From Synechococcus sp. SynAce01 (GTDB lineage: Bacteria; Cyanobacteriota; Cyanobacteriia; PCC-6307; Cyanobiaceae), in assembly GCF_001885215.1 (NCBI RefSeq), contig NZ_CP018091.1:2046001-2110000 (forward strand): 64,000 nt of DNA. Direction: 5' to 3'. The notes below the pieces were generated by a model, which was not told the origin of the DNA, searched no databases, and saw only the letters and a list, made by a program, of their open reading frames with translations. Below are positions 9,519 through 27,222 of the stretch, piece by piece. Positions within the stretch are counted from its first letter, which is position 1. Each line of letters opens with the position of its first letter. Made by a program: the position numbers and the translations under genes.

Positions 9519-10814
9519 TTGATCGAGCGTTATTCCCTGCCTGAGATGGCCAGGATCTGGAGTGAGCAGGCCAAATTCCAGACCTGGTTAGAGGTGGAGC
9601 TGGCAGCCTGTGCAGCCCAGTGTGAGCTGGGCCGGGTCCCGGCTGAAGCGCTGGCGGAGATCCAGGCCAAGGCACGTTTCGAGCCTGAGCGGATTGCCGT
9701 GATTGAAGCGGAGGTGCGCCACGACGTGATTGCCTTCCTCACCAACGTCAATGAGCACGTCGGAGACTCTGGCCGCTACATCCACGTCGGCATGACCAGC
9801 TCCGATGTGCTCGACACTGGCCTGGCCCTGCAGCTGAAGGCCTCGGTTCAGGCCCTGCGCCATGAACTTGACGGTTTGGTGTCGGCTCTGCGTGAGCTGG
9901 CCGGGGCCCACAAGGACACGGTGATGGTTGGTCGCTCCCATGCCATCCATGGCGAGCCGATCACCTTCGGCTTCAAGGTGGCTGGCTGGCTGGCTGAAAC
10001 CCTGCGCAACCAGGAACGGCTGGAGCGGTTGGAGACGGTGGTGGCCGTGGGGCAGATCAGCGGAGCGATGGGCACCTATGCCAACACCGATCCTGAGGTG
10101 GAAGCCCTCACCTGCCAACGGCTTGGTCTGGTCCCCGACACCGTCAGCACCCAGGTGATCGGCCGCGATCGGCATGCCGACTACGTCCAGACCCTGGCTT
10201 TGGTTGGCACCTCCCTGGAGCGTATCTCCACTGAAATCCGCAACCTGCAACGCACCGACGTGCTGGAGGTGGAGGAAAGCTTTGCCAAGGGCCAGAAAGG
10301 AAGCTCGGCGATGCCACACAAGCGCAACCCCATTCGCAGCGAGCGGATCAGCGGACTGGCGCGCGTGCTGCGCAGCTACACCGTGGCCGCCCTGGAGAAC
10401 GTGGCCCTCTGGCATGAGCGGGACATCAGCCACAGCTCGGTGGAGCGAATGATGCTGCCGGATTGTTCCGTCACCCTCCACTTCATGCTGCGCGAGATGA
10501 CCGCAGTGATCCGGGGACTGGGCGTCTATCCGGCCAACATGCAGCGCAACTTGAACGTTTATGGCGGCGTGGTGTTCAGTCAGCGGGTGCTGCTAGCCCT
10601 TGTCGAAGCCGGCATGGCCCGCGAGCAGGCCTACGCCATCGTTCAGCGGCATGCCCATAGCGCCTGGAACACCGAAGGCGGCGATTTTCGCGCCAACCTC
10701 AACGGTGATGCTGAAGTCTGCGGCCGTCTCAATACCGCCCAGCGCGAAGCCTGCTTCAGCACGGCCTTGCATCAGGCCCAGCTGGGCGTGATCTGGGAGC
10801 GGCTGGGCCTCTGA
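9519..10814 (+). CDS. purB: Adenylosuccinate lyase
   Basis: 431 residues, starting at TTG 9519 (MIERYSLPEMARIWSEQ), which fits the family N-terminus exactly. It cleaves SAICAR and adenylosuccinate in purine synthesis. The fumarase/lyase superfamily signature KGSSAMPHKRNPIRSER carries the catalytic serine. The histidine motifs VGRSHAIHGEPITFG and TSSDVLDTGLALQL are present. It is a stand-alone core gene and marks the conserved side of the island that begins after the next gene. Confidence 0.97.
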   Translation: MIERYSLPEMARIWSEQAKFQTWLEVELAACAAQCELGRVPAEALAEIQAKARFEPERIAVIEAEVRHDVIAFLTNVNEHVGDSGRYIHVGMTSSDVLDTGLALQLKASVQALRHELDGLVSALRELAGAHKDTVMVGRSHAIHGEPITFGFKVAGWLAETLRNQERLERLETVVAVGQISGAMGTYANTDPEVEALTCQRLGLVPDTVSTQVIGRDRHADYVQTLALVGTSLERISTEIRNLQRTDVLEVEESFAKGQKGSSAMPHKRNPIRSERISGLARVLRSYTVAALENVALWHERDISHSSVERMMLPDCSVTLHFMLREMTAVIRGLGVYPANMQRNLNVYGGVVFSQRVLLALVEAGMAREQAYAIVQRHAHSAWNTEGGDFRANLNGDAEVCGRLNTAQREACFSTALHQAQLGVIWERLGL

Positions 10815-11208: not shown

Positions 11209-12449
11209 GGAAACATGCGCTTTGCTGGGACGGCAGGGATTCTATGGAGAGGCAGCTGGTTGCTCCGCGTTAAGAAAAATTTGTTTTCGATTAATCAAAA
11301 GAATCTAATCCTATTCCATTGGTTGAAAAGGGGCTTTTGGTTCGTACCTATTATGCAGAATGGGTCAGGAACAATTTCAGAAAAAACTAAGCAAGCCACC
11401 TGATAACAATTCTGATTAGGGCATTGGTTTCAGCCTCTGGGTTGCTCTGCAGATGGCAAAGAGCAGATTGTTGTCAGTGACCAGTTTAAATTTATGTTTA
11501 TCAAGTTTTGATCTTACGCCTTGATTGACCCGAGTCTTGGACGGCTATTTCTAATAGGCAATGAGCTTTCTGTTAATGATTGGCATGCTCAACAGCTAGT
11601 CTACGTTGAGATCGGGAGATCCTTGAAATAAACGGGGCATGGCGAAGAGCGAAGCATGGCCTAATCTCAAGTCCACTCTGAAGAGTGCGGAACTTGCAGC
11701 ATAAATAAGTAGTTTGCCGAAAGGTTTCCTGTTTTGATATTATTAATCGCCAATCCCTCAGCGCAGGCTTGTATAGGCTTCTCCGTCATTGTTGCTGTCC
11801 TGGTACTGGTGAGCTTGGTGTAGTAGTTCCTGGCTGCGTAGATAAGAGTTGATAGCGTTTCGGCTATATCAAAGTCCTCTTGGAGCCGATCCAGAACTGC
11901 CTCCTGTTCGAGACTGCGTACTGCTAAGATGAGAATCTTAGGCTCGAGTGATTCTGGCTGTTTGCCATACTGCAGCTTTGCGCTGACTGGACCAAAATAT
12001 GGTATTCAGATAGGCTCTTTCTTTCACTTGCTTGGGCATATCTTTCTGCATGAAGGTCATCTCGTTTTCTAGTAACATCTATTGCAGATTTTCCGCCCTG
12101 ATCACTTCTTCCGCCGTCTAACCGTATCAAACGACGGCCTGAGAATCCTGCCGCACCGTGCTCTGATTCGCATTCGGCTCTGGAGATATCTGAAGACAAA
12201 GGTGCATCTGCTGGCTACTAGGAAGCTCGGCTCTATCCGGGGTGAAGATGCAGGCTAAGCGCACAGTGATCTTCTTGGCTCAATTCATCATCCGGACTAT
12301 GTCCTCGTCACCGATGGAGAACATGGTGATGGAGTTGTTTTGGGCTGTGAAGGCGGGAATCATTGTGGACGCAATAAGTAGAAGACAGCAAACAGTAAAT
12401 TTAGTCTTTATATATTCAGTTCCTGAAGGCTGTAAAGCTGCCTGCAAAT
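11209..12449. other. AT-rich gap without a convincing gene
   Basis: About 1.24 kb with clearly lower GC than the rest of the window. Open frames exist (for instance 11924-12199 minus and 12242-12460 plus), but none shows a domain, a ribosome site and a plausible composition together. It may hold decayed genes. It forms one edge of the accessory island that contains the stator/cytoskeleton locus. Confidence 0.5.
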
Positions 12450-13268
12450 CTAATTCATAATTGGATCAATTCCCTCTAGAAAGGTGACGCTGCCTAGGCT
12501 GCTTACTAGCTCCACTCCCTCTGGGGTGCTCGTGAATTGACCTGCTTCACGATCAGGCTTGCCTTGGCCATCCTTGCTGAAGATCTCTACCATGCCATTG
12601 GTCCAAAATACGTATCTGCTGCTGTAGCCATCTTCCCACTGAACATTGTAAACAGTATGACCATTGATGTTTGTCGAGATGCTAGTTAGGCAAGAAAGTG
12701 ATTTCGATTTCGAGTCGCGGTAGCTACGGAACGTACAGGAGCTCATGCCTGGTTCACTTGGGTTACTATCGGAGGGCTTGTTGCTGTTGTCTTCCTTTGG
12801 TTGGATTGGTTCCTCAAGGCGAGATGCTTCATTGATTTGAGTTTCGGCAACAGCGGGTGCGTCGGATTTGTTGGTATTGAGATTGCGTTTAGGCTTAGGC
12901 GCCGGGTTCTTTGATGGGCGATTGAATAAATCCAGCTTCTCAGGAGAAGAATTGTTGATACTTTTTCTTGTTTGATTCAGAGAGGACAGCCCAAGTGCAA
13001 TAACTACAAACGCTGCCAATGAGCCCAAGAAAAACAAAGCGGGGATACCCGACTTGACCGATGTTGTTAGTGGACTGAGACTTGCCGATAGTTCTGGACT
13101 TGGAGGAGTGCCTTGCAGCCTTTTGTCTTGGACATTTTTTATTCCGGATTCGGACGTCTTCAAAGGTAAAGACGGTGGTAGGAAGGTAGACTCGTTGAGC
13201 TCATGGAGCAGTTCTTCGGCGCGAGCAGCAATGTCCTTCGGCTCCTCCCGGTGCGCCTTTTGGCTCAT
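12450..13268 (-). CDS. Single-helix membrane protein of the stator unit, hypothetical
   Basis: 272 residues. A cytoplasmic N-terminus with an acidic amphipathic helix (DIAARAEELLHELNES) precedes one membrane helix near residues 74-97 (GIPALFFLGSLAAFVVIALG). A long Pro/Ser/Asn/Lys-rich linker follows, then a C-terminal globular part with a few cysteines and the segment VYNVQWEDGYSSRYVFWTNG, which looks beta-rich. The AT-richer composition suggests recent transfer. Its start overlaps the stop of the upstream 222-residue gene (ATGA), so it is translated with the motA/motB-like genes. No known family. Confidence 0.7.
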   Translation of the reverse strand: MSQKAHREEPKDIAARAEELLHELNESTFLPPSLPLKTSESGIKNVQDKRLQGTPPSPELSASLSPLTTSVKSGIPALFFLGSLAAFVVIALGLSSLNQTRKSINNSSPEKLDLFNRPSKNPAPKPKRNLNTNKSDAPAVAETQINEASRLEEPIQPKEDNSNKPSDSNPSEPGMSSCTFRSYRDSKSKSLSCLTSISTNINGHTVYNVQWEDGYSSRYVFWTNGMVEIFSKDGQGKPDREAGQFTSTPEGVELVSSLGSVTFLEGIDPIMN

Positions 13269-13933
13269 GGCTGCTGCTCCGAGAGTCTCAACAGGCGGTT
13301 GAGTAGATCCTGCTGGATCCGCAATTGTGAGCGAAGTTCGTTGATCTCACTGTCCTGTCTGGTCTGCTGCTGGCTGACCCGACGCTCAAGGCTCTCCAGT
13401 CGTCGCAACAGCATCGTCTGCTTCTCCTGCTCGGGGAATGGACGATTGCGGGGCACCATCTCACCTGGGCTGAACAATGTCCAGCTTTGGCCGCGCACCA
13501 CCGGCTTGAAGATTGGAAGCATCTGCAAGACCAGATCTTGTTGCCCCTCAGACTCCAGGGCGGTGGGGAAGATGCGCTGAAAAGTCTCGCTGTCCCACAC
13601 CCAGGCAGGGGAATCAGCTTGCACCCAGACGACGGCATCACCACCGATAAGCTCACAGAACTGGAACACCGAAGCGGACTCGGCCACGCTGAGGCGAAGG
13701 CCACGCTGGGTTGTGGCGGTGAGTTCTGCTGGAGCCTGGTAAGCCGCCAGGGCCTCGGGAGAGCGGCGCAGCAGACGGGTGAGCAGCAGCTCATCGACGG
13801 GCCACGGCCGGCGTGAGGGAGAAGCACTGGGCGGCTGTTGGGGCGGAGCCGGCCTGGCAGTGTGAACCTGCAGCTGCTCGACGTCTCGCTCCAGTTGCAG
13901 CAGGCGATCGAGCGGTGAAGGTGTGGCAGCCAT
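13265..13933 (-). CDS. Stator-unit protein with the shared C-terminal module, hypothetical
   Basis: 222 residues from ATG 13933, one base after the upstream stop; a longer frame would run into the OmpA-like gene. Parts: an N-terminal heptad stretch (LDRLLQLERDVEQLQ), a Pro-rich linker, a globular domain with VWVQADSPAWVWDSETF and FKPVVRGQSWTLFSPGEM, and a C-terminal coiled coil (about residues 180-220, LLRRLESLERRVSQQQ). The globular part resembles the C-terminal modules of the 237- and 325-residue proteins in this locus (WLxP, KPA, WxLxxKG pattern). No membrane helix. Function unknown; context suggests a cytoplasmic partner of the stator. Confidence 0.75.
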   Translation of the reverse strand: MAATPSPLDRLLQLERDVEQLQVHTARPAPPQQPPSASPSRRPWPVDELLLTRLLRRSPEALAAYQAPAELTATTQRGLRLSVAESASVFQFCELIGGDAVVWVQADSPAWVWDSETFQRIFPTALESEGQQDLVLQMLPIFKPVVRGQSWTLFSPGEMVPRNRPFPEQEKQTMLLRRLESLERRVSQQQTRQDSEINELRSQLRIQQDLLNRLLRLSEQQP

Positions 13934-13934
13934 C

Positions 13935-14537
13935 TCAGCGGTTCTCCTGACGCGTGAAGCGCAGCTCGATGCGGCGCCGTTCGGCACGATTCTTCGTGTC
14001 GGCGGGGGCATACCGACCATCTACCTCGATCAGGCTACCGGCGGAATAGGGGCGAATGATCAACCCTTCGCTGCCATCGGGATCCAGCCTGGCCCTGAGC
14101 TCATGGGCCACAGCCAGGGCGCGCAGCAGCCCCAGATCGGTGTTTGAGCCTGCCAGGAAACCGTTGAGCGTTGATGAACGGTTGGCCTTGGGCATCAGCA
14201 GATCGAGGTTACTCATCCCTGGTGAAGGTTGACCATCGGTGTGGCCAATCACTTCGACGCTGTCGATCCGGTACTTCTTGATGATCTCGCGAATGTCCGG
14301 TAAGCGTCGATCCAGGGCTTGTTTGAAGTCTGGGCTCAGCACATAGCTTCCGGTGCTGAAGCGGAAGGATTCCCGCTCCGTTAAAGGAACCAGGGGTGGT
14401 TTCTCGTTACTGGCTCGCGCCAGGGCTGCGATGGCCACGGTAATCAGCAGGATCAGCAGGCTAGTGCTGAGCAGGTCGGTATAGCCGATCCAGTAATTGG
14501 TGTCGCTGTTCTGGGAGCGTCGCCTGGAGCGAGCCAT
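13935..14537 (-). CDS. MotB/ZorB-like stator protein with OmpA peptidoglycan-binding domain
   Basis: 200 residues. A short basic cytoplasmic tail precedes one membrane helix, WIGYTDLLSTSLLILLITVA. The aspartate D21 at its start matches the ion-binding Asp of MotB (YADxMT) and of ZorB. The periplasmic OmpA-like domain has VEVIGHTDGQ, RALAVAHELRA, IRPYSAGS and NRAERRRIELRF, the residues that bind diaminopimelate in peptidoglycan. It follows the MotA-like gene after 2 bases, the classical stator pair order. Seen: residues and order. Inferred: ion-driven, wall-anchored motor. Flagellar use is unlikely, as no flagellar genes are near and picocyanobacteria lack flagella. Confidence 0.88.
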   Translation of the reverse strand: MARSRRRSQNSDTNYWIGYTDLLSTSLLILLITVAIAALARASNEKPPLVPLTERESFRFSTGSYVLSPDFKQALDRRLPDIREIIKKYRIDSVEVIGHTDGQPSPGMSNLDLLMPKANRSSTLNGFLAGSNTDLGLLRALAVAHELRARLDPDGSEGLIIRPYSAGSLIEVDGRYAPADTKNRAERRRIELRFTRQENR

Positions 14538-14539
14538 GA

Positions 14540-16174
14540 TCAGCGCCCCCTCCCGTCAAGATCTCGGCCATCGGGCCCTGCCAGTGAGCTCAGACTGAGC
14601 AGGCGGGTCTCGAGATCCATCACTAACTCGATCAGCCCCTGGCTGAGGGCCTGGGCATTCCGGGTCGGTTGATCAAGCTCAATGAGTGCGGCTCGCTGGG
14701 TGTTGATGGCCGCACCAAGATCCTGCTGCAATTGATGACGTAGTTGCTCGATGGTCTCTCGGGCTTGCTTGCTGCGCTCGGCCAGCAGGGCCTCATCCTC
14801 GAATTTGGCATGCTGCACCGAACTCACAAAGGCGCTGGTGAGCTCATCGAGGCGCACCACATTGAGATTCCAGTTGGTGAGTGCACGCTCGAGTGCAGCG
14901 GCGAACACCTGGCAGCTTTCGGCCACTGAGGCATCGGTAGCCAGGCGAGCGCGGACTGATTCGGACACCTCCAAGGCCAGCTTGCGGTCGCGCATGACCT
15001 CCAGACGGGCTTCTCGCAGCTGCTTGCTGGCTTCCGTCGACGATTGGGTGCTCTGCTCCAGCGACAAGGTGGCCTGCTGCAGCGATTGAATCTCCTGTTG
15101 CATCTGCTGGCTGGCGAGTCGGCAGGTCTGCAGTTCTGTTTCGGCCGTTTTGGCGAGCAACTTCCATTCCGATTGGCTGAGCATCAGCCCATCTCGCACA
15201 TCGATCAAGCGGGCACTGAGGCCATCGGAACTGGCTGTGATCTGCTCCTGGGATTCCTGTAGACCTCGTACCGATTGCTGCAAGGTCGAGGCGAAGTCAG
15301 TGTCACGAAAAGCCTGTGCCGCCTGCACGAAATCCTGCCCGCTTTCGTTGAAGGCATTGGCAACGCTGCCGAGCTGGCGAACGGCAATCTGTGCCTGGGA
15401 GGTGAGTGTGGTGTTGACACTGAAAATCTCCTTGAGCTTGGCGGAGAAAGCCTCGTTCATGGCTGATTCGACTGCTGCATGGATGGCGACAGGCAGTTCA
15501 AGGCTGGTTGCATTCAGATCCTGAATCGATTGGCGTAGGGGAGCCATCACCTTGCTGTCGAGCTGCTGGGGAAGCACCGTCTCCAGCCAGCTGCTCAACA
15601 GGGCTTCACAGCGCTCCAGAGCATTCCTGGTGCCGACGATCTGCGTCCAGATCAGCACGAGCAAACTCAGAAAGAGACCGACCAGGCTCGTCTGAAACGC
15701 GGCTCCCATGGGGGCCACAATTCCCGAGAGGGCTGTCATGGTTTCTTCGGTGCTGGCATTCTTGCCCAGGGCTCCAGCGATCTCACTCAGACCAACGGTC
15801 AGGCCGGCAAAGGTACCCAGAAGGCCCATCGAGATCAGGATCCCCGGGGCTTGCTGCAGCCAGCTCTGGGCTGATGCCGCTGTGATCTGACCAGAAAAAA
15901 AGGGCAGGGAGATGGTTTCGATCTCACCAGCACTGAATTCGGCGGTATCGACCTGATCGACATGGCAGAGCAGCGCGATGTAGCGAGTCTTGATGCGCTC
16001 GAGTCGATCACCCAGCTCCGGAATCTCCGAGTCGTCCTGGTGGAGCTGGGCCAGCCTGGTCGCCAATGGGCTGGTCAGGCGTGCCAGCCTGCGCGAGAGG
16101 TCAATCGCCAGAAAGGCCACCACCACCATCACAATCAGGATGACGACTTTTGAGAGATTGATCAGGTCGTCCAT
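14540..16174 (-). CDS. MotA/TolQ/ExbB-type channel protein with long coiled-coil tail (ZorA-like)
   Basis: 544 residues. Helix 1 is near residues 8-26. The two conserved channel helices are PGILISMGLLGTFAGLTVGL (about 108-130) and GAAFQTSLVGLFLSLLVLIW (about 158-183), the MotA/TolQ/ExbB signature. The last about 350 residues are a Gln/Glu/Ser-rich tail with heptads (for example LQESQEQITASSDGL, QQMQQEIQSLQQATLSLEQ), predicted to be cytoplasmic. A three-helix channel with a very long cytoplasmic tail is the layout of ZorA, the motor of Zorya defence. The ZorB-like partner is directly downstream. It starts the second minus-strand unit of the locus and is divergent from the 237-residue gene. Confidence 0.85.
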   Translation of the reverse strand: MDDLINLSKVVILIVMVVVAFLAIDLSRRLARLTSPLATRLAQLHQDDSEIPELGDRLERIKTRYIALLCHVDQVDTAEFSAGEIETISLPFFSGQITAASAQSWLQQAPGILISMGLLGTFAGLTVGLSEIAGALGKNASTEETMTALSGIVAPMGAAFQTSLVGLFLSLLVLIWTQIVGTRNALERCEALLSSWLETVLPQQLDSKVMAPLRQSIQDLNATSLELPVAIHAAVESAMNEAFSAKLKEIFSVNTTLTSQAQIAVRQLGSVANAFNESGQDFVQAAQAFRDTDFASTLQQSVRGLQESQEQITASSDGLSARLIDVRDGLMLSQSEWKLLAKTAETELQTCRLASQQMQQEIQSLQQATLSLEQSTQSSTEASKQLREARLEVMRDRKLALEVSESVRARLATDASVAESCQVFAAALERALTNWNLNVVRLDELTSAFVSSVQHAKFEDEALLAERSKQARETIEQLRHQLQQDLGAAINTQRAALIELDQPTRNAQALSQGLIELVMDLETRLLSLSSLAGPDGRDLDGRGR

Positions 16175-16349: not shown

Positions 16350-17063
16350 GTGGAGGACAGCAAAATTGTCGTATCTCTCAAGTTTCTGCTGAGCAGCGTC
16401 AAGAAACTCAGTGACACCTTCATCGCCAGCGAGGAAAAGCTCACGCTGAGCTTGAAGGGTGTTGCCACTGATGTGGATGATCTGCAGGAGCGAATTGAGT
16501 GGCTGGAGAAGCAGCTGGTGGATCTCAGTGATAGCGCCCTGGTGGCTGCTCGCCCGCTGATGACACCAACATTGCCGGTGCACTCCGACAGCGAAGAGCG
16601 TGTTGTGCCGGCCCTCAATCTTTCCTTGGAGGCCATTCTTGATGCCTATGCGAGCACTCCAGTTCTGCTGGAGCCCTTCGCTCGGCCATGTAGCGTCAAT
16701 GGTCGCACCCTCAGCGGTGAGATCGATGGCGTGGAGCTCGAGCTGTTTGTGCAGGGAACCACCTGGGCATTGGCAGGCCTCGATGGGGAGTGGTTGCTGG
16801 TGCCCCGGCCGGGAACCCTGGAGCGCCGGACTCAATTGGACTCACTTGAGCGGCTTTATAGCATCGAAGGTGTGAAGCAGTTTCCAGCCCTCCTGCATCT
16901 GATCCGACCGGCCAGAGCTGAAGCGGTGGTGCATGGCCGTAGATGGCAACTCAAGGAGAAAGGAGTGTTGAGCATGACTCCCGACCCCCTCAAGGCGAAC
17001 ATCTCAGGGCGCCTGGCTGAGCTTGAGCTTCGTTTGGCCAGGCTGGAAGCGTCTTCCAACTGA
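16350..17063 (+). CDS. Coiled-coil protein with the shared C-terminal module, hypothetical
   Basis: 237 residues from GTG 16350, the only plus-strand gene of the locus. The N-terminal 60 residues are a strong coiled coil (LSLKGVATDVDDLQERIEW, LEKQLVDLSDSALVAAR). A globular domain of about 130 residues follows, with TWALAGLDGEWLLVPRPG and RPARAEAVVHGRRWQLKEKG, the same WLxP / PA / WxLxxKG pattern seen in the 222- and 325-residue proteins. The protein ends with a short helix (GRLAELELRLARLEAS). Its stop lies one base from the stop of the convergent 325-residue gene. No known function. Confidence 0.75.
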   Translation: MEDSKIVVSLKFLLSSVKKLSDTFIASEEKLTLSLKGVATDVDDLQERIEWLEKQLVDLSDSALVAARPLMTPTLPVHSDSEERVVPALNLSLEAILDAYASTPVLLEPFARPCSVNGRTLSGEIDGVELELFVQGTTWALAGLDGEWLLVPRPGTLERRTQLDSLERLYSIEGVKQFPALLHLIRPARAEAVVHGRRWQLKEKGVLSMTPDPLKANISGRLAELELRLARLEASSN

Positions 17064-17064
17064 T

Positions 17065-18042
17065 TCAGATGGGCGCAAGCACGATTCCTTTGGATATGAC
17101 CTCCCAGATTCCCTCGTCAACTTGCATCACTTCAGCGGGCTTCTTTAATTCAGCGAACGAGATCGAGGTCTGCTCTTCATAGTCATAGATCCCCTTCTGG
17201 GGCTTGTTTGTCGTGAAGCTCTCCAGGGTCTGGGCGGTTGGACAGAGCCAGTGTCTGCCGCCACGCTGAATCAGCAAATAGCTCCCACCTCCAGTGACAA
17301 CCTGCAATTGGGTTCTGCTTGTTGAGGTGCCCCGCGTCATTGCCTCTTCTGATTCCTGGGTAATATTCAGCCCTGCCACCGTTAACTCACGAATCGTGGC
17401 CCTGTCGTTGCGTTGAACAGCAGCTGAGTAGTCGGCCGTGACCTCGTCGGCAGGGGATACCGGCGGTGGCGTTGGATGGAGGCCGAGTGCGGACGGCTCG
17501 GGCGGGATAAGCTTTGCCGTGACAGTAGAGATTAAGTTGTCGTGTTTTGATAATTGCTCTCGGAATCCAGCTTGGCTGGCGGCAAGTTGCTTGTTGATCG
17601 ACAGTAGTTTTTGAGTTGTGCTTGCTTCGCGCTCCACGAGGCCGCGCTTTATCGTATTGATTTCAAGCTGGTATTTCTCCATATCCTTTAATTTGCTCTC
17701 GAGTGCTCTGAGGCGCTTGCGTGCATCCAGCCTGTGTGGGCGAAGCCACCAATAGATGATCGCCAGGGAGCTCACCCCTGATAAAAATCCCAGCCCAGCC
17801 ATGGCGGCCCAGCCGATCTCCCAGGGATCAACAGAAGAATCAGTTCGCTGTGCTATCGCTATAAAGCGATCAGGTGTATCTGCTGTGGTTTGCGTTGCAG
17901 CGCGAGCCGATGTTATTTGGGTGCTGCTTTGAACTTCGGGCTGTATTAGGGCTGGCAGAGTGACCACAAGCGATAAGGCCGTTGCCCCAGCAAGAATGAA
18001 AGGCAGGGGCGATCGCGAGCTTTGACTCTTCAGAAACTGCAT
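17065..18042 (-). CDS. Membrane-anchored coiled-coil protein with the shared C-terminal module
   Basis: 325 residues from ATG 18042 (MQFLKSQSSRSPLPFIL); an upstream in-frame ATG would overlap the preceding gene by 29 bases. Two membrane helices (about 12-32 and 77-97, the latter WAAMAGLGFLSGVSSLAIIY) flank a periplasmic loop of about 45 residues. Then come a coiled coil (about 105-185, LRALESKLKDMEKYQLEI) and a C-terminal domain with YLLIQRGGRHWLCPTAQT and KKPAEVMQVDEGIWEVISKG. Last gene of the vWA / tubulin-like / ATPase unit. The membrane anchor plus cytoplasmic coil suggests an adaptor between the cytoskeletal proteins and the membrane (inference). Confidence 0.75.
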   Translation of the reverse strand: MQFLKSQSSRSPLPFILAGATALSLVVTLPALIQPEVQSSTQITSARAATQTTADTPDRFIAIAQRTDSSVDPWEIGWAAMAGLGFLSGVSSLAIIYWWLRPHRLDARKRLRALESKLKDMEKYQLEINTIKRGLVEREASTTQKLLSINKQLAASQAGFREQLSKHDNLISTVTAKLIPPEPSALGLHPTPPPVSPADEVTADYSAAVQRNDRATIRELTVAGLNITQESEEAMTRGTSTSRTQLQVVTGGGSYLLIQRGGRHWLCPTAQTLESFTTNKPQKGIYDYEEQTSISFAELKKPAEVMQVDEGIWEVISKGIVLAPI

Positions 18043-18073: not shown

Positions 18074-21000
18074 TCAGAAACGCTCGGCCCACTCACGGGC
18101 AAGGATCGTGATCAGGGCGCGCAGGCCCATCACAAACGCTGGTTCGGGCTCAAGGTCGCCGATCTCCTTGCCAACTTCGCCTTGGGCAAAGGCCTGTGCC
18201 TGCGTCGCTACATCATCCCAAAGGCTGTCGAGGGAAATCAGCTTGCGAATCGGCAGAAGACTGCTGATCTTTGCAGAGCCCAGAGCTTCGTCGTAGTTGC
18301 TGACAAACTTGCGCAACTCTGTGAGACCTCCAAGCTCGTAACTGTCTAGAAGATTGATGTTATTAGGAATCTCAATGCGATCCAACGGCCCAAAGGTAAT
18401 GCCGTTGATCACAAGCTCTTCGCCGGAGAACATCAGGTCTTTGCGGGGATCAAAATTTCCCTGGAGATTGACGCCCTTGCTGATCAAGCCGCATGCTGTC
18501 TCATCCTTAAAAGCATTGGAGAGAGTTGTGGGAGCAGCTCCCTGGCGGCTCTCTACAAATCCAGAGCTCCTGCGCTGCAGCTCTTCCATCAGGATGTCGG
18601 CATCGCAGCCTTTGGAGAAAGCCCCACTCTCGTCGAGCCAGTTGATGAAACGGGCACCGTTGCCGCCCAGATACACCGGCATTGCAGCCTGCTTGCGAAG
18701 GCGCCCCTCCCTGGCCAAGGCTTTGAGAACCAGGCCGAGGTAGTGGTAAATCCCGCCAAAGCTCACCGCCATCAGGCTGATAAAGCCCAATAGTTGCTTG
18801 TCCTGCTCGGCTCGATGAATGGGCATGCGATCCTGCAGCAGTTCATCGGAGGCATAGCGCAGACAATTATCCAGCCAGCTGTTGAAGTTTGGATCCTGTC
18901 TGAGCTTGGCATCATCTTTCGCGATCTCTCCAGTGACCCCAGGTGCAAACAGAAATTGAATGAACGAGGGTTTTGATTGAAGAATGCTGGTGCAGATGTT
19001 GCGCCCAGCAAAGGGGATAGAAACCTGGTGCAGAAGCCCATTGTCCTGCCAGATGCTGATGTCGGTAGTGCCGCCACCTACATCCAGGCAGGCAGTATGA
19101 ATCATCTGCCGGCCAAGATAGTTGCCGAAATAGCTGGCAAAAGCCACGGCTTCGGTCTGCAGACCTCCTTCCCCGCCATCCTCCACGAGCTGATGGCTCA
19201 GGCCTGTCAGAGCAGTGAGCTCCTGGCAGAGATCTCCCCACTGGCGCCTGTAGTTACGTGCTTCATTAGGCGAAAAGGCACTTGGATAAGAAACAGCCCA
19301 TTGCACTTCTGCAGCACCACCAGCTGCAGCATTGCTGCTGATCAACAGGGCCAACTCTTTGAGGAATGGCTTCTGATAATTCAGTTGGCGCCACTTGAAC
19401 CCTGTATGAACGCCGTTACCGCGCATCGCCAGGGCATTGGTGCTGGGCCACTGGACCCGAGCCTGATGATAGAGATCTGGAACTTTCCCTTTGACCTCCT
19501 GCCAGCCATAGGTGTTCAGGGCAGTGGACGTTGGCGGATTGGAATCTTTGGGAAGTAACAGCTCTGGGATGAAGAATTTATATAAGAGATTTAGCTGGTT
19601 TTCCTTTTGGGCCAGCGTCAAAGGAATGACGCGTGTTTCCAGAGGCTTACGAGCTGGACCGGTCCCGTCTTGGATGAAGAAATTGGTGAAGGAGGTGCCG
19701 AAATCAAACCCCACTCGCCAGGTGGCAGACATGTTTCCAGGCGGCGGTGGTGGATTAACTGGAATCAGCCCACACACCTCTCCTCTTTCAATCACTTTGA
19801 TCAGGTCTGGAAATCGCTCAGAGGTGAAATACTTGACGTTTTCCTGGCCGTCTCGACCCGTGTGCAGTTCATAATCGCTGAAGCCATCAACCGTCAGGCC
19901 TGTGCTGCTGTCCTCACAGAAAATATAGTAGTTCTTCCACTTTTGATCGGGAATGTTGGGCCAGAGTGTGATCACTGGCAGGTCTTCATCGATCAGGTTC
20001 TGCTCCTTGATCGGAAATACTCTGGTGATCGGATAAGGATCCCTCTGCCCTTTTAATCTCAGCATCAGGGTCAGCTCGATCGCCATGCCGCCACCGGTCT
20101 GCACAAGCCTGAGGGAGCAGCTTTTGGCGAGTTCGGCGCTGCTGAACAGCTCACGCATCCGTGGCTGAAGTGGCAGCAGAGGCGTGACGGGATTGCCGTT
20201 CACCATCGGTTGGCCCTCTAGCCGATTTGGCAACCAGGAATTCACCAATGCCGCTGGCCCTGGCAGCAGGAATAGCTCTGCAAGGAAGATATCGTCCGGG
20301 GTCAGAACTTCAATCGTGTCGCCATAGAGCCGCAGCAGCTGGTTCTTGTCATACCCCACTGATTCCAGGGTTGCTGCTGCATGCAGGGTGATCTCGTTGG
20401 CGGGAAGACCAAGCCGATTGGGCATCTCCCGATCAACCAGAATCACCGGCCGATTTTCGGCTGGAGTCTTCGCCAAGGGGCGTTGGCGGCGATCCTCCAG
20501 CACGAGTTCTGCGTTGCTCGGGCTGGTGCCACCCTTGGCAGCCCTCGCGAGGAGTGCCACTGCTGTTGGTCGTGGTGGCAGGCTGACAATGCGGTTGTCG
20601 GAGAGAATGGGATCGAGAGATCGGCTATCGCTCAATCGTTGAATGAAACCGCTTAACACCTGGGCCATCTGGTTGGCCATCAACTGATTGTTGCGATCGG
20701 GAGCCGTGAGAATGCCTCGGCTGATATGACTGAGCCAAGCTGCGAGTGACTGCCGATGCTGGGCTCCCAGGCAGCTGGTCGGAGCACTGAAACAGCCTTC
20801 AGCCGTCCACTTCATCCCCTGGATCGCAGCAGGCAGATGGACCGCTGGGCAGAGCACCGTGACCGGTGATGTGAAGCCAACCACCACCCCGTCAACCTTC
20901 AGCACATGCAGGGTTGCCCAGGGGTTGCTGCCATCGGTCAGGGTGTAAAGCGCTTTTGCACCGCTTGGTTTTGATCCGAACAGGCTGCGGGCAAAGGGGC

Positions 21001-21370
21001 CAACGGCTTCATCCTGCTGTTCGATGTACTCCGCCAGACTGACCTGCTCTGCTTCTAGTTTCAAGCCGTAGATTTCCCACAGGCCAACGGTGGCGAAACA
21101 GCCGAAGAGTTCCTCGAGCAGGGCCTTGCCTGTGGGATACCGAGGATTGATCACCGCCTGCTCAAACTGCAGCGCCCTCGACCAAGGAGAGGGCAGTGAA
21201 TTCACCCGGCTGCTGGCAACTTCGTACACGAGGCTGTCGGCAATGGTGCCTAAGTTCTGCTGGTCACGGCTTTGCCATTCGCCCGAGCGCGAACCTCCCG
21301 CCAGGGGGGGATCTGTTTTCGGGAACCAGGGATATTGAAGGATGGTCTCGGCGGTGTTGTCAGGGGCCAT
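18074..21370 (-). CDS. Large protein with Hsp70/actin-type ATPase domain
   Basis: 1098 residues. The first about 540 residues match no family I know. From about residue 548 a complete ASKHA nucleotidase fold is seen: phosphate-1 motif WRVGFDFGTSFTNFFI, phosphate-2 motif ACLDVGGGTTDISIW (about 762) and adenosine motif YLGGNGARFINWL (about 900). QWAVSYPSAFSPNEARNYR lies between, as in Hsp70 relatives. Layout and length recall the SrfB-type virulence-associated proteins, but I cannot confirm that without a search. It is soluble, with no signal peptide. It lies 23 bases after the tubulin-like gene and is surely co-expressed. Possible roles are a chaperone-like remodeller or a polymerising actin relative. 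Confidence 0.82.
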   Translation of the reverse strand: MAPDNTAETILQYPWFPKTDPPLAGGSRSGEWQSRDQQNLGTIADSLVYEVASSRVNSLPSPWSRALQFEQAVINPRYPTGKALLEELFGCFATVGLWEIYGLKLEAEQVSLAEYIEQQDEAVGPFARSLFGSKPSGAKALYTLTDGSNPWATLHVLKVDGVVVGFTSPVTVLCPAVHLPAAIQGMKWTAEGCFSAPTSCLGAQHRQSLAAWLSHISRGILTAPDRNNQLMANQMAQVLSGFIQRLSDSRSLDPILSDNRIVSLPPRPTAVALLARAAKGGTSPSNAELVLEDRRQRPLAKTPAENRPVILVDREMPNRLGLPANEITLHAAATLESVGYDKNQLLRLYGDTIEVLTPDDIFLAELFLLPGPAALVNSWLPNRLEGQPMVNGNPVTPLLPLQPRMRELFSSAELAKSCSLRLVQTGGGMAIELTLMLRLKGQRDPYPITRVFPIKEQNLIDEDLPVITLWPNIPDQKWKNYYIFCEDSSTGLTVDGFSDYELHTGRDGQENVKYFTSERFPDLIKVIERGEVCGLIPVNPPPPPGNMSATWRVGFDFGTSFTNFFIQDGTGPARKPLETRVIPLTLAQKENQLNLLYKFFIPELLLPKDSNPPTSTALNTYGWQEVKGKVPDLYHQARVQWPSTNALAMRGNGVHTGFKWRQLNYQKPFLKELALLISSNAAAGGAAEVQWAVSYPSAFSPNEARNYRRQWGDLCQELTALTGLSHQLVEDGGEGGLQTEAVAFASYFGNYLGRQMIHTACLDVGGGTTDISIWQDNGLLHQVSIPFAGRNICTSILQSKPSFIQFLFAPGVTGEIAKDDAKLRQDPNFNSWLDNCLRYASDELLQDRMPIHRAEQDKQLLGFISLMAVSFGGIYHYLGLVLKALAREGRLRKQAAMPVYLGGNGARFINWLDESGAFSKGCDADILMEELQRRSSGFVESRQGAAPTTLSNAFKDETACGLISKGVNLQGNFDPRKDLMFSGEELVINGITFGPLDRIEIPNNINLLDSYELGGLTELRKFVSNYDEALGSAKISSLLPIRKLISLDSLWDDVATQAQAFAQGEVGKEIGDLEPEPAFVMGLRALITILAREWAERF

Positions 21371-22900: not shown

Positions 22901-23428
22901 TCAGCGCCCTCCCAGCAGACGGACGGCACCTGGGACCACGAACCTGTAGGTGCGCGGAGAGGCCAGCAGTGTGGGCAACCAGAACAGAAGCAGAACGTTG
23001 AGCACCACGAACACCATCACCAACAACCAACCTCCGGCCGGTAAGGGGTAGTAATTCACCCCGCTCCCTTCGACAGGAGAAGCGGATTGAATCTGCCAGA
23101 TCAGCACAGTAAAGAACAGCTGAGAGAGCCAACCCAGAAGCACCAGCAGAATAGTGGAGATCCACCACCTTGGCTGCATGCTCTTCACTTCTGCAGCATT
23201 GCGGGGCTTGCCATTCAACGTCGTGAAAATCCAGAAAAGCAAGGCAATAGTGCAGCTGATCCAGAGTATTGTGAAAGATGGGCTACTGATCTGAGGTAAG
23301 AATACATTCAGATTTTGGCCCAACAGAGCTGAAAAAAGGTTGAGAAAAATCCAGTTCTGAATGATGAAAACCCAGAGAATGCCGATCAGAACGGTGAGCC
23401 CAAGCCAGATGTACTGAGTGGATCGCAT
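22901..23428 (-). CDS. Four-helix integral membrane protein, hypothetical
   Basis: 175 residues with four clear membrane segments: IWLGLTVLIGILWVFIIQNW, SFTILWISCTIALLFWIFTT, WWISTILLVLLGWLSQLFF and GWLLVMVFVVLNVLLLFWLP. The longest external loop is only about 20 residues. No family recognised. It sits 12 bases after the vWA lipoprotein gene and one base before the tubulin-like gene, so it is an obligate member of the unit, probably the membrane platform. Confidence 0.75.
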   Translation of the reverse strand: MRSTQYIWLGLTVLIGILWVFIIQNWIFLNLFSALLGQNLNVFLPQISSPSFTILWISCTIALLFWIFTTLNGKPRNAAEVKSMQPRWWISTILLVLLGWLSQLFFTVLIWQIQSASPVEGSGVNYYPLPAGGWLLVMVFVVLNVLLLFWLPTLLASPRTYRFVVPGAVRLLGGR

Positions 23429-23440
23429 CGAAGGGCAGAT

Positions 23441-24733
23441 TCAGGTGTGTTGGTAGGCAACGCATAGCGCAGCAGCAGGGGTGTTGGCTGCATTCATGCC
23501 AATCTGTTGTCCCAGGGTGGTCATGAGCAGGAGCAGGCCTTCAGTCTGCTCCCTGGCGCCGGCAGCTTTCGGGTCTGCGCGATCCCACTCGAGCCACCAC
23601 TGCTCTGGTAGGCTGCCGCGGGGAATCGTGGCCCGCAGCAGACCGGCGGGAGCGGAGCTGGGAATGTCGAATTCCAGGCGCAGGTTCGAGCCCGCCACGC
23701 TCATGCTCTTGAGGCGAACCCCCCCCAGGTTATTGGAACTGTTTGGCGAGGTAGGAATCCGCTCAAGGCGGACCAGGCCCAGATCAGGGCGGGTGGTGCC
23801 TCCACTCCAGGGCGTGGTGGTGGCCAGCACAAGGCCGGTGGCTCCTGGATTCAGCCGAACGAATCCATAGTTACCGTTATTACTTGGCGAGTAAGTGATG
23901 TTCTGTAGGCGCACAGGACTGCCTGACGCTCCCTTGTTGTTGGGGATTGCCGCTGCTGACTTGACTGTCAATGTTTGCAGTCCTGTATTGCCGTCGAGGA
24001 TCGAAAGTTCCTGGGTCGTGACACCTTTTTGGGCCATATTTCTCTGGATGTCCTGAAGCAGGGAGCTCACTTGATCGGGTTTGCCTGTGGCCAGAAGATA
24101 GAGAGGGCGATTGAGTTTTCCGGTATGGATATTGACACCTTGCGCATCGAAGACCTGCCCCTGGAATGGCAGCTTCAGGGCCAGAACCCCTGCGGAAGCC
24201 CCCTTGAGTAGATCCTTTCGGACAGCGCCGATCAGGCTGGAGATGTCACTCTGATTGACCTCAAGGTCACTCACCAGAAGCCGCAGCGGCGTGCTGCCTC
24301 CCTGGGGCTGCACGTCCCAGAGGGTCTGTAGGCTGGAAGCCACTGCGGAGTAACCGCCGCAGCCCTTGAAAAAGCAGGGATCAGTGGCCAGCGTCACCCG
24401 CTCGCCGCTGAGCTCCTGGGCCGTGCCGCCGCCGATACGGAAAGCTTTGCTGGAGAGCCCCTGAGTTTGGGCCGAAAGATTCACGGCCTGGAGCAGGTTG
24501 CGCCACCGGGAGGCATCGGCTGCTTGAGCATGGCCGAGCATCGAGCCACTGCCATCGATGCCGATCAACAGCTGGTTGGCTTGTGTGCCAACGGTGGCTG
24601 GAGTTGGATTGGCCGTGGCGTCGGCAGTTTTAATGACGCAGTCAGGTAGTTTGGGTGTACAGCCCAGAAGCATCAACGATGACAGGAACATCATGCTGAG
24701 CAGTGCTGTTGAGAATCTCAATCGACCTGGCAT
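23441..24733 (-). CDS. von Willebrand factor A domain lipoprotein
   Basis: 430 residues. A signal peptide with lipobox LMLLGC gives lipidation at Cys25. The vWA domain starts near residue 55 with LLIGIDGSGSML, a MIDAS motif (Asp60-Gly-Ser-Gly-Ser) for metal-dependent binding; LRLLVSDLEVN and the following segments fit the Rossmann-like core. The C-terminal about 200 residues include a beta-rich part (VRLQNITYSPSNNGNYGFVR). Two extra cysteines in PCFFKGCGGY may form a disulfide. First gene of the minus-strand unit; it implies that the machine reaches the periplasm or outer membrane. Confidence 0.85.
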   Translation of the reverse strand: MPGRLRFSTALLSMMFLSSLMLLGCTPKLPDCVIKTADATANPTPATVGTQANQLLIGIDGSGSMLGHAQAADASRWRNLLQAVNLSAQTQGLSSKAFRIGGGTAQELSGERVTLATDPCFFKGCGGYSAVASSLQTLWDVQPQGGSTPLRLLVSDLEVNQSDISSLIGAVRKDLLKGASAGVLALKLPFQGQVFDAQGVNIHTGKLNRPLYLLATGKPDQVSSLLQDIQRNMAQKGVTTQELSILDGNTGLQTLTVKSAAAIPNNKGASGSPVRLQNITYSPSNNGNYGFVRLNPGATGLVLATTTPWSGGTTRPDLGLVRLERIPTSPNSSNNLGGVRLKSMSVAGSNLRLEFDIPSSAPAGLLRATIPRGSLPEQWWLEWDRADPKAAGAREQTEGLLLLMTTLGQQIGMNAANTPAAALCVAYQHT

Positions 24734-25241
<508 letters not shown>

Positions 25242-25599
25242 CAAGTTGAAGTGTTTCCAGCTCGACCACTTTCGCTGCCAAGTGGCTCGATGGATTAGTT
25301 CAATGTGTCGATACAGCGAGCGATGCCGTCTAGCTGTGTTTCCTCGCCAGGTTGTACAGGGTCTAGGATCCGATTGAGGCACTTCTGAGGCATGAGACAA
25401 CTGAGAGCCATGTTTCACCTGCTGTCGTTATGGATACCCAGATAGCAAAGTGGCCAGTGAGAGCATTGCTCTCATGCCTGGTAGGTAATGACATGGACTC
25501 ATCCTGGCAGGGTAGCTTGAGTTAGGTGAAGTCGACCAAAGGCCATAATGCTAGGCTTTTCGTTGGATAGTGGGGTAAAGATTGGAGTTCCACGGATAT

Positions 25600-26565
25600 A
25601 TTGAGACTGCTGAAGGCTTCTCTGGCATGAGTGCAGAACTTGGAATAAGCTTTTGCTCGTAATCGATCGGTCTGAGGTTGTCGATTGTTGAATGGCGACG
25701 CTTGCGGTTGTAGTAGCACTCGATCTAGAAGGCCAGATCGCGCTGCAGATGCTGGGGAGTGACCAAAACCTCGCTGTCGTCATCAAGATCAAGCCTGAGT
25801 TTGATGGTTAAAAAAATTCCTCCCCCACGGCTTTGCTCCAACAGCAGCCCTTGGCGGACATCCTGTATTTGAGATCATGTCTCCTCAGTAGAATGTGGTA
25901 GTCAGTGGCTCGGTAGCGACCGCCCTAATCCCTGTGGATGTGCAGTAGGCAAGGTTCCATTTGGCGATGATTGAGGGCTCGGTTGAGCGCCTCCACCACA
26001 ATGGAAGTCCCCTTCCGGCTGTTGACCTACCGGCCGACGATGGGGCGACTGAACTGATCGATCCAAACCGTCAGATACTGCGCCGTCTTGCTGTAGTACG
26101 GATGGTGGAGATGTCGCCGGCCCAGCAGTAGTTATGAACCTTGGGCTTGTAGTTCATGCAGTAGCGGGTTTCCCTGCGCCCCGTACGCACCGCTGCTGGC
26201 CATGCTGCAAGTGCAGAATGCCTTGCGGGTCTTGCCCTGCAGCTGTGCACGTTTCAACCGCTGCGCGGAAGCTTGCGGCCTGAGCCTGGCCATACGGTGG
26301 CTCCCGACCTGGCGGCTGGCAGCTACCAACTTTTGGTGGACATGCGGGGAGCTGTAGAAGCAGCTGTGCTGCTGGAATACCGCCTGTAACTCAGCTGTGA
26401 GCACCGCGTTTTCGGACCCTGCTTTCCCGTGGCCTCCTGGCGACGGCTCCAGATGTAGTAGCCACTCCGGGGCACCCCCAGCTACCAGCAGAGCAAGGAG
26501 ACATAGAAGCGGCCTTGCAGGTGGTGGATCAGACGAAACCTCTCGGCGGCAGATGCTTCTTTTAT
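25600..26565 (-). pseudogene. Decayed IS3-family transposase (OrfB)
   Basis: Read on the minus strand, the OrfB order is intact but broken by stops and frameshifts: ERFRLIHHLQGRFYVSLL at the start, ELQAVFQQHSCFYSSPHVHQ and KTRKAF, then NYCWAGDIST (the first Asp region), LTVWIDQFSRPIVG, VVEALNRALNHRQMEP, MSAKGCC, and near the end YYNRKRRHSTIDNLRPIDYE. An in-frame TAG lies just before IECYYNRKRR, and at least two frame changes are needed. No functional element remains, and terminal inverted repeats were not identified. Confidence 0.82.
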
Positions 26566-26787
26566 GTGGATGCGAGGCATCGTGGCCAAAGGATACGGAG
26601 GCCGGCCGCCCTTTTTGCTCGTCTTGGGGTGGCTGGGCTCAATCAGATCGATTAATGACTGCCAAGGCACCACTTCTTCCATCTCAGCCAGGAACTTTTC
26701 CCCGCTAGTGGCTCCGCCCTGCTCGGCCTTTGGCCTCTGTAACGGTGCGCTTCTTAGCCGTCGTCTGCTAGTAATACGTAAAGCCAA
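26566..26787 (-). pseudogene. IS5-family transposase N-terminal fragment
   Basis: The minus-strand frame contains FLAEMEEVVPWQSLIDLIEP, then PKTSKKGGRPPYPLATMPRIH, the well-known N-terminus of IS5-group transposases. The similarity stops at PRIH and the reading frame runs straight into the start of the IS3 OrfB (AERFRLIHHL). So an IS5 copy was cut and joined to, or interrupted by, an IS3 element. The catalytic part of IS5 is missing. Confidence 0.8.
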
Positions 26788-27222
26788 GCTGATTGATTGC
26801 CATCAACTCAGGACTGAACGGTGATCACAGGGCCATTGTCCCGCGTAATGGTTGAGTTTTTCAGAGTCTCCTTAGTACTGAAGCGTGATCATAGGTTGAT
26901 TGTTTCGCAAATTGGATTGTTTTTCAAAAGTTTTCCCGGCGGCAAGTAGTGACGGGGTTCTTGAGCAATTCGATGACAAGCTTTCTCAGAACTTTTCTGA
27001 TGCAGCAGATATTCTGCGGTAATCAACGCTCCCGCCTCTGTGCTGTAGGAGAACGTTCAGGCTTTTCCCTAGGATGTTGAGGGCGCCCAATCTGGTGATT
27101 GATTTCGTCCGCTTGCTGTGCTTTGCTCTTCCATTTTTTACAACTCCTTGATGGTGCCGGAGTGAGGAATATCCCCAAGCTGGCCGGGGCGCGAGACTTC
27201 AGGGCCCTCTTGTTGGAACCCC
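26788..27222. other. Non-coding spacer at island edge
   Basis: About 435 bases of lower-GC sequence between the IS remnants and the next conserved gene. No gene, RNA or repeat recognised. Confidence 0.4.

Follow-up and report, generated by a model that had tools for sequence, protein, structure and literature searches.

The window analyzed here, 64,000 nucleotides from Synechococcus sp. SynAce01, contains two adjacent genes whose products resemble ZorA and ZorB, the stator subunits of the Zorya anti-phage system. The locus raises the question of what such a motor is paired with, and what it serves, when no Zorya effector is encoded beside it.

The stator pair

The two genes are as follows:
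14540..16174, minus strand: ZorA-like stator A subunit, 544 amino acids, with three predicted transmembrane (TM) segments and a long tail low in proline and glycine
13935..14537, minus strand: ZorB-like stator B subunit, 200 amino acids, with one TM segment carrying D21 and an OmpA-type peptidoglycan-binding domain

Both genes are intact and separated by 2 bases (16174-14540 and 14537-13935), in agreement with the initial annotation, which had also pointed to D21 as the ion-binding Asp and to OmpA peptidoglycan motifs. These features were conserved across the 28 aligned family members: D21 (in WIGYTDLLSTS) was invariant, and so were GHTD..Q, RRRIE.RF, and, within SN.DL..R, the residues D, L, and R. 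In single-sequence library searches, the window proteins matched the PADLOC ZorA (E = 1.9e-9) and ZorB (E = 2.7e-9) models, and the former matched 24 of the 25 ZorAs of the family. The NCBIfam Zorya models scored the pair far under their cut-offs, and the Pfam OmpA match of the window ZorB (E = 3.4e-4) was also under its cut-off. Pfam MotA_ExbB had no match in the window ZorA and was found in just one of 25 family members.

The ZorB family profile matched solved ZorB and PomB structures. When the profile of the ZorA membrane core was compared with the whole PDB, the significant matches were ZorA chains only (8QYH, E = 2.9e-10; 8VVN, 4.3e-10; 8VVI, 1.5e-4; also 8QYY, 8QYK, and 8QYD); the sole non-ZorA match was an unrelated protein at E = 0.9, and no MotA, TolQ, ExbB, or GldL chain was found at E ≤ 1. 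The ZorA tail, whose inspection had been proposed, spans approximately 354 amino acids, of which Pro makes up about 1% and Gly about 3%. Two further residues, T121 and S163, are invariant in the family and correspond, in the alignment to the solved Escherichia coli ZorA, to T147 and S184 (numbers counted off that alignment), which is compatible with the Ser/Thr ring reported to surround the ZorB Asp in Zorya (PMC11890865). Sequence comparison supports the assignment of the pair to the Zorya-type stators rather than to TolQ/R or ExbB/D.

Search for Zorya effectors

The initial annotation had found no ZorC, ZorD, or ZorE in the window, and this held when each was sought genome-wide with one model. 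ZorE was not detected in the whole genome, nor was ZorC, whose model was also silent in all control genomes. The ZorD profile matched only unlinked helicases in the genome, the main and best match being an SNF2 helicase 0.88 Mb away; the same profile matched in 8 of 14 control genomes, and the helicase was rejected as the ZorD of the system because it is unlinked and generic. As neither the type I effectors ZorC and ZorD nor the type II effector ZorE was found in the cluster, the system was not filed as Zorya, which it would resemble in part in its way of working.

The neighboring tubulin–actin cluster and its adaptors

Upstream of the stator pair lies a cluster (24733-16350) encoding a VWA lipoprotein, a four-TM protein, a tubulin-like FtsZl1 protein, an actin-fold ATPase, and coiled-coil adaptors, and two further genes follow ZorB:
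23441..24733, minus strand: VWA-like lipoprotein, assigned by motif (MIDAS-type DGSGS and lipobox LLGC)
22901..23428, minus strand: TM175, protein of no known family with four predicted TM helices
21394..22899, minus strand: TUB, 501 amino acids, short FtsZl1/Tubulin_2 protein
18074..21370, minus strand: ACT, 1098 amino acids, ATPase with a predicted actin/MreB/Hsp70 fold spanning about residues 550-1000
17065..18042, minus strand: P325, coiled coil and P237-type domain, with two hydrophobic segments
16350..17063, plus strand: P237, coiled coil and conserved domain, AF2 model with pLDDT 89.6
13265..13933, minus strand: P222, 222 amino acids, cytoplasmic coiled-coil protein, paralogue of P237/P325
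12450..13268, minus strand: P272, 272 amino acids, single-TM protein

The genes from the VWA-like protein to P325 form a same-strand run (24733-17065), which in the window is separated from the ZorAB-P222-P272 run by the oppositely oriented P237. The DGSGS motif and lipobox of the VWA-like protein, which had no Pfam VWA match, occur in many relatives and are missing from some. The assignment of TUB was based on its match to Pfam Tubulin_2 (PF13809; 29.9 bits, cut-off 27), the only one in the genome, on the similarity of its family to the long FtsZl1 proteins (hhalign, E = 3.6e-7), and on its conserved glycine motifs T1 (GVGGSGAK) and T4 (FGGTGAS); a sequence search of TUB against the PDB gave no match. 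ACT had weak matches to FtsA/MreB by sequence. The top list for its AF2 model (pLDDT 80) consisted entirely of the actin/MreB/Hsp70 superfamily, with 8r2n at E = 2.8e-7 and probability 1.0, and D556, G558, T559, D763, G765, G766, T768, G902, and G903 were conserved at ≥90%. The cluster carries, by family profile, a member of the tubulin-like family, and ACT has, in its predicted model, an actin fold. Among the 10 cluster proteins, Pfam recognized no P-loop GTPase or protein kinase.

P237 and P325 are members of a single family, and many of the ACT loci carry more than one copy of it; a fold search of the PDB with P237 gave nothing at E ≤ 0.001. Profile–profile comparison placed P222 with this family (E = 4e-7), and P222 followed ZorB in all 10 relatives examined. 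The 222- and 272-residue proteins had been described as novel downstream genes and as the different output module of the motor. Both genes are present, and the motor is indeed paired with a different module that lacks Zorya effectors, but that module is not these two proteins alone: P222 is paralogous to the adaptors of the cluster itself, and P272, shared with no more than the two closest relatives, is a local addition.

Linkage of ZorAB with FtsZl1 and actin-like genes

In four relatives (cyanobacterial MAG CAR3_bin_5, Candidatus Synechococcus spongiarum SP3 and SH4, and a Prochlorococcaceae MAG; L129-L132), ZorA, ZorB, P222, VWA, TM, TUB, ACT, and P325 formed a single one-strand array whose genes are separated by short gaps or overlap, and the gene order of the window was kept in three close relatives (L124, L126, and L127). 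Among the 201 genomes of the family, ZorB was present in 12 and TUB in 12, with both in 10 (counts uncorrected for relatedness); in 8 of these 10, the two genes were on one contig within about 10 kb, and several of the 10 co-occurrences were at different chromosomal places. Given this collinearity in four relatives and the co-occurrence, the VWA-TM-TUB-ACT-adaptor cluster was taken to be the main partner of the motor.

The association extended across the phylum. In a set of 292 genomes, ACT was found in 23, PF13809 in 61, and ZorB in 53 (five of them weak matches outside the class), and an FtsZl1 or ACT protein accompanied ZorB in 42 of 47 genomes, versus 26 of 245 others, in a phylum draw uncorrected for relatedness. 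The commonest cyanobacterial layout was a protein of approximately 380 amino acids, a long FtsZl1 of approximately 1080 amino acids (Tubulin_2, E = 5e-111), ZorA, and ZorB, and this layout was conserved across the Nostocales. The 380-residue partner was labeled VWA from a reading of its sequence; hhalign gave no support for uniting it with the window VWA family, so the two are kept apart here. Plasmids of Deinococcus carry a tubulin-like FtsZl1 gene followed by a ZorA relative and an OmpA-family ZorB; the D. deserti ZorA relative matched the family profile (4e-15), and Deinococcus also matched the PADLOC ZorA model.

In the ZorB tree, the ACT-linked pairs fell into two separate parts: the Synechococcus group of the window and another group among the long-FtsZl1-linked pairs (G133 and G014). 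The long FtsZl1 was not found in G133, G014, or G080. This distribution looks like a constant ZorAB motor whose partners have been exchanged, the number of exchanges being unsure on a tree with long branches. About half of the ACT genomes (10 of 21) lacked ZorB; a genome of the same genus, with the cluster at the same purB site (G330; L217), had no ZorAB; two genomes (G356 and G430) carried ZorAB without TUB, next to a 452-residue membrane protein; and some pairs stood alone beside recR or hisS. Because ACT clusters without ZorAB and ZorAB without TUB both exist, the motor is frequent and exchangeable, not obligatory.

The 452-residue membrane protein, conserved beside ZorAB (L213:9958-13969 and L214:1842-5758), represents a further partner type and matches PADLOC C3a124 (2.2e-33 in L213). 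The 1023- and 391-residue genes adjoining ZorAB in G356 were dismissed as partners, being read by eye as the host genes SbcC and SbcD. Relatives of the window ZorB also occurred in Thiomargarita/Thiotrichaceae genomes (L184, L156, and L186), in one of which (L184) the ZorAB pair was near a dynamin-like gene.

Flanking genes and genomic setting

About 50 bp downstream of P272, the initial annotation had overlooked the following:
about 11764..12396, minus strand: decayed staphylococcal-nuclease-like (SNase, Excalibur-type) gene, 36% identity over 216 amino acids, several in-frame stops

SNase-type genes flanked the cluster, at either end, in four relatives (L215/L123, L218, L219, and L224) and were not detected near several intact clusters; the link between the gene and the cluster is uncertain. 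A helicase or nuclease of the system located elsewhere had been named as a finding that would speak against an effector-free pair. The flanking SNase gene, decayed in the window, touches on this in part; the helicase is unlinked.

The GC content of the cluster is lower than that of the rest of the window. The adjacent segment at 24734-27222 is AT-richer (GC 0.53) and lacks long genes, with remnants resembling IS transposases at 25.9-26.8 kb, recognized by eye, and long homopolymer-like runs near 25.2 kb. On the other side lies purB (9519-10814), beside which versions of the cluster were found in three genomes of the genus (also L217 and L225); in G330, the cluster at the purB site is in the opposite orientation and has no ZorAB. 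The purB-adjacent site is an accessory hotspot. Plasmids of Meiothermus and Thermus (L227:6330-14407 and L230:6419-14378) carry vWA, tubulin-like, hypothetical (about 680 amino acids), and BrxL genes near HEPN or TROVE genes, with no ZorAB seen, and an Azospirillum plasmid (L228) carries a tubulin-like gene amid caspase-family and OmpA-family genes.

Possible functions of the system

We consider it fairly probable that the ZorAB-type ion-driven motor is one part of an FtsZl1 (tubulin-like)/actin-like system of wider scope and acts on a membrane-bound assembly. This reading draws on gene content, ZorAB kinship, tubulin-like membership, the actin fold of a predicted model, motifs, linkage, and co-occurrence, and its assembly, rotation, adaptor contacts, and cellular purpose are what we infer. 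In published Zorya structures, the motor is a 5:2 assembly whose function needs the channel Asp, the tail, and peptidoglycan binding (PMC11890865), and action through the tail is proposed here by analogy with these solved motors. Five ZorA subunits would surround two ZorB helices in the inner membrane, with ZorB gripping the peptidoglycan; the passage of ions by D21 would rotate ZorA together with its long tail in the cytoplasm, and this tail may act through the coiled-coil adaptors P222, P237, and P325 on a membrane-bound assembly of the TUB GTPase and the ACT ATPase. P325 and TM175 may hold this assembly at the membrane, and the VWA lipoprotein may sense or bind on the envelope side. More tentatively, a peptidoglycan-anchored rotary ion motor might directly drive or gate the tubulin-like and actin-like assembly, ZorAB being a general, interchangeable motor of FtsZl1 systems of which Zorya defense is one specialized branch; we regard this fuller proposal as possible, short of probable.

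Two other readings of the pair are considerably weaker. TolQ/TolR and ExbB/ExbD belong to the same superfamily as ZorAB, which would suit an energy transducer for transport or Tol–Pal. However, the core profile found ZorA entries in the PDB and, at E ≤ 1, no TolQ, ExbB, MotA, or GldL chain, the B subunit is of the OmpA type, and Pfam recognized no transport partner in the cluster; a place within these families, which the initial annotation had set against its own proposal, is very improbable. It is also unlikely that the pair is autonomous and that the tubulin/actin cluster next to it, within an accessory island, has nothing to do with it. The separate ZorAB run in the window, the solitary pairs beside recR or hisS, and the ACT clusters without ZorAB would agree with such an arrangement, whereas the collinear array in four relatives, the 10 co-occurrences of markers each present in only 12 of 201 genomes, several of them at different chromosomal places, the adaptor paralogue P222 within the ZorAB run, and the FtsZl1 genes adjoining most other cyanobacterial ZorABs argue against it.

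A Zorya-like anti-phage role, in which ZorAB would detect disturbance of the envelope and the output would come, in place of ZorC/D or ZorE, from the tubulin/actin/VWA module, either by itself or together with a periplasmic SNase, is a real possibility that we do not favor. It is consistent with the patchy presence in 12 of 201 family genomes, the lower GC and the adjacent IS-type transposase remnants (seen by eye), the change of partner modules between loci, the SNase genes flanking the cluster in four relatives, the FtsZl1-VWA genes that in Thermus and Meiothermus adjoin BrxL and HEPN or TROVE genes, and in Azospirillum caspases, and the C3a124 match of the 452-residue partner of a related ZorAB. 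On the other hand, no Zorya effector was found, PADLOC models recognized none of the six proteins VWA, TM175, TUB, ACT, P325, and P237, and the SNase is dead in the window and undetected near several intact clusters. The Nostocales-wide conservation of the long-FtsZl1/ZorAB layout and the viral contigs, none of which matched the ZorB profile, also speak against defense; together with a prediction made in 2010, they count in favor of envelope remodeling. A plasmid tblastn search with the window ZorA gave no match.

Relation to known systems

Makarova and Koonin (2010; PMC2875224) predicted FtsZl1 (Tubulin_2)/vWA/OmpA membrane-remodeling systems, in which FtsZl1-family, VWA-type, and OmpA-domain proteins are encoded together, in cyanobacteria among others; the window likewise combines an FtsZl1-family protein and an OmpA-domain protein with one that is VWA-like by motif. 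Unlike those systems, the window has a short FtsZl1 (501 amino acids) together with an actin-fold ATPase and coiled-coil adaptors, and it lacks a P-loop GTPase or kinase in the cluster, components that are frequent in those systems, not universal. In the main text of that paper, the OmpA proteins are taken to be porin- or adhesin-like, whereas the one in the window is a stator of the ZorB type, paired with ZorA. With Zorya types I-III, the system shares ZorA/ZorB homologues, the channel Asp, the peptidoglycan domain, and the long ZorA tail; it differs in encoding tubulin-like, actin-like, and VWA-like proteins in place of ZorC, ZorD, or ZorE, and in a similarity far under the NCBIfam cut-offs. 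The MotAB, TolQR, ExbBD, and GldLM motors would have in common with it a predicted 5:2 ion-driven architecture, but the ZorA core has no significant PDB sequence match to them. SrfB of the SrfABC operon is also large (about 1000 amino acids); the Pfam SrfB match on ACT is weak and not significant (E = 0.2), and no SrfA or SrfC was found in the cluster.

On these assignments, the system falls among the FtsZl1/VWA/OmpA systems of the 2010 prediction, as a variant that carries a motor and an actin-like protein, and its "OmpA" partner is a stator B subunit. The new elements are a ZorAB-type motor recognized within an FtsZl1 system, a short-FtsZl1 variant that includes an actin-fold protein, and the family of adaptors. 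Among the literature matches listed, subscription papers and preprints aside, none connected ZorAB with tubulin or FtsZl1, described a gene cluster combining an ion motor with tubulin-like and actin-like proteins, or gave a mechanism for FtsZl1 systems since the 2010 prediction. A reviewer of that paper raised the objection that an FtsZ-like protein in the cytoplasm would be unable to act together with proteins of the OmpA type, which lie beyond the membrane (PMC2875224). A ZorB-type stator with a ZorA tail, which is cytoplasmic in the solved Zorya motors, would provide a physical link across the membrane, and reading OmpA as a stator yields a testable motor–cytoskeleton hypothesis. ZorAB matches alone do not prove a Zorya system, and the motor of Zorya is placed within a wider family that appears to swap its partners.
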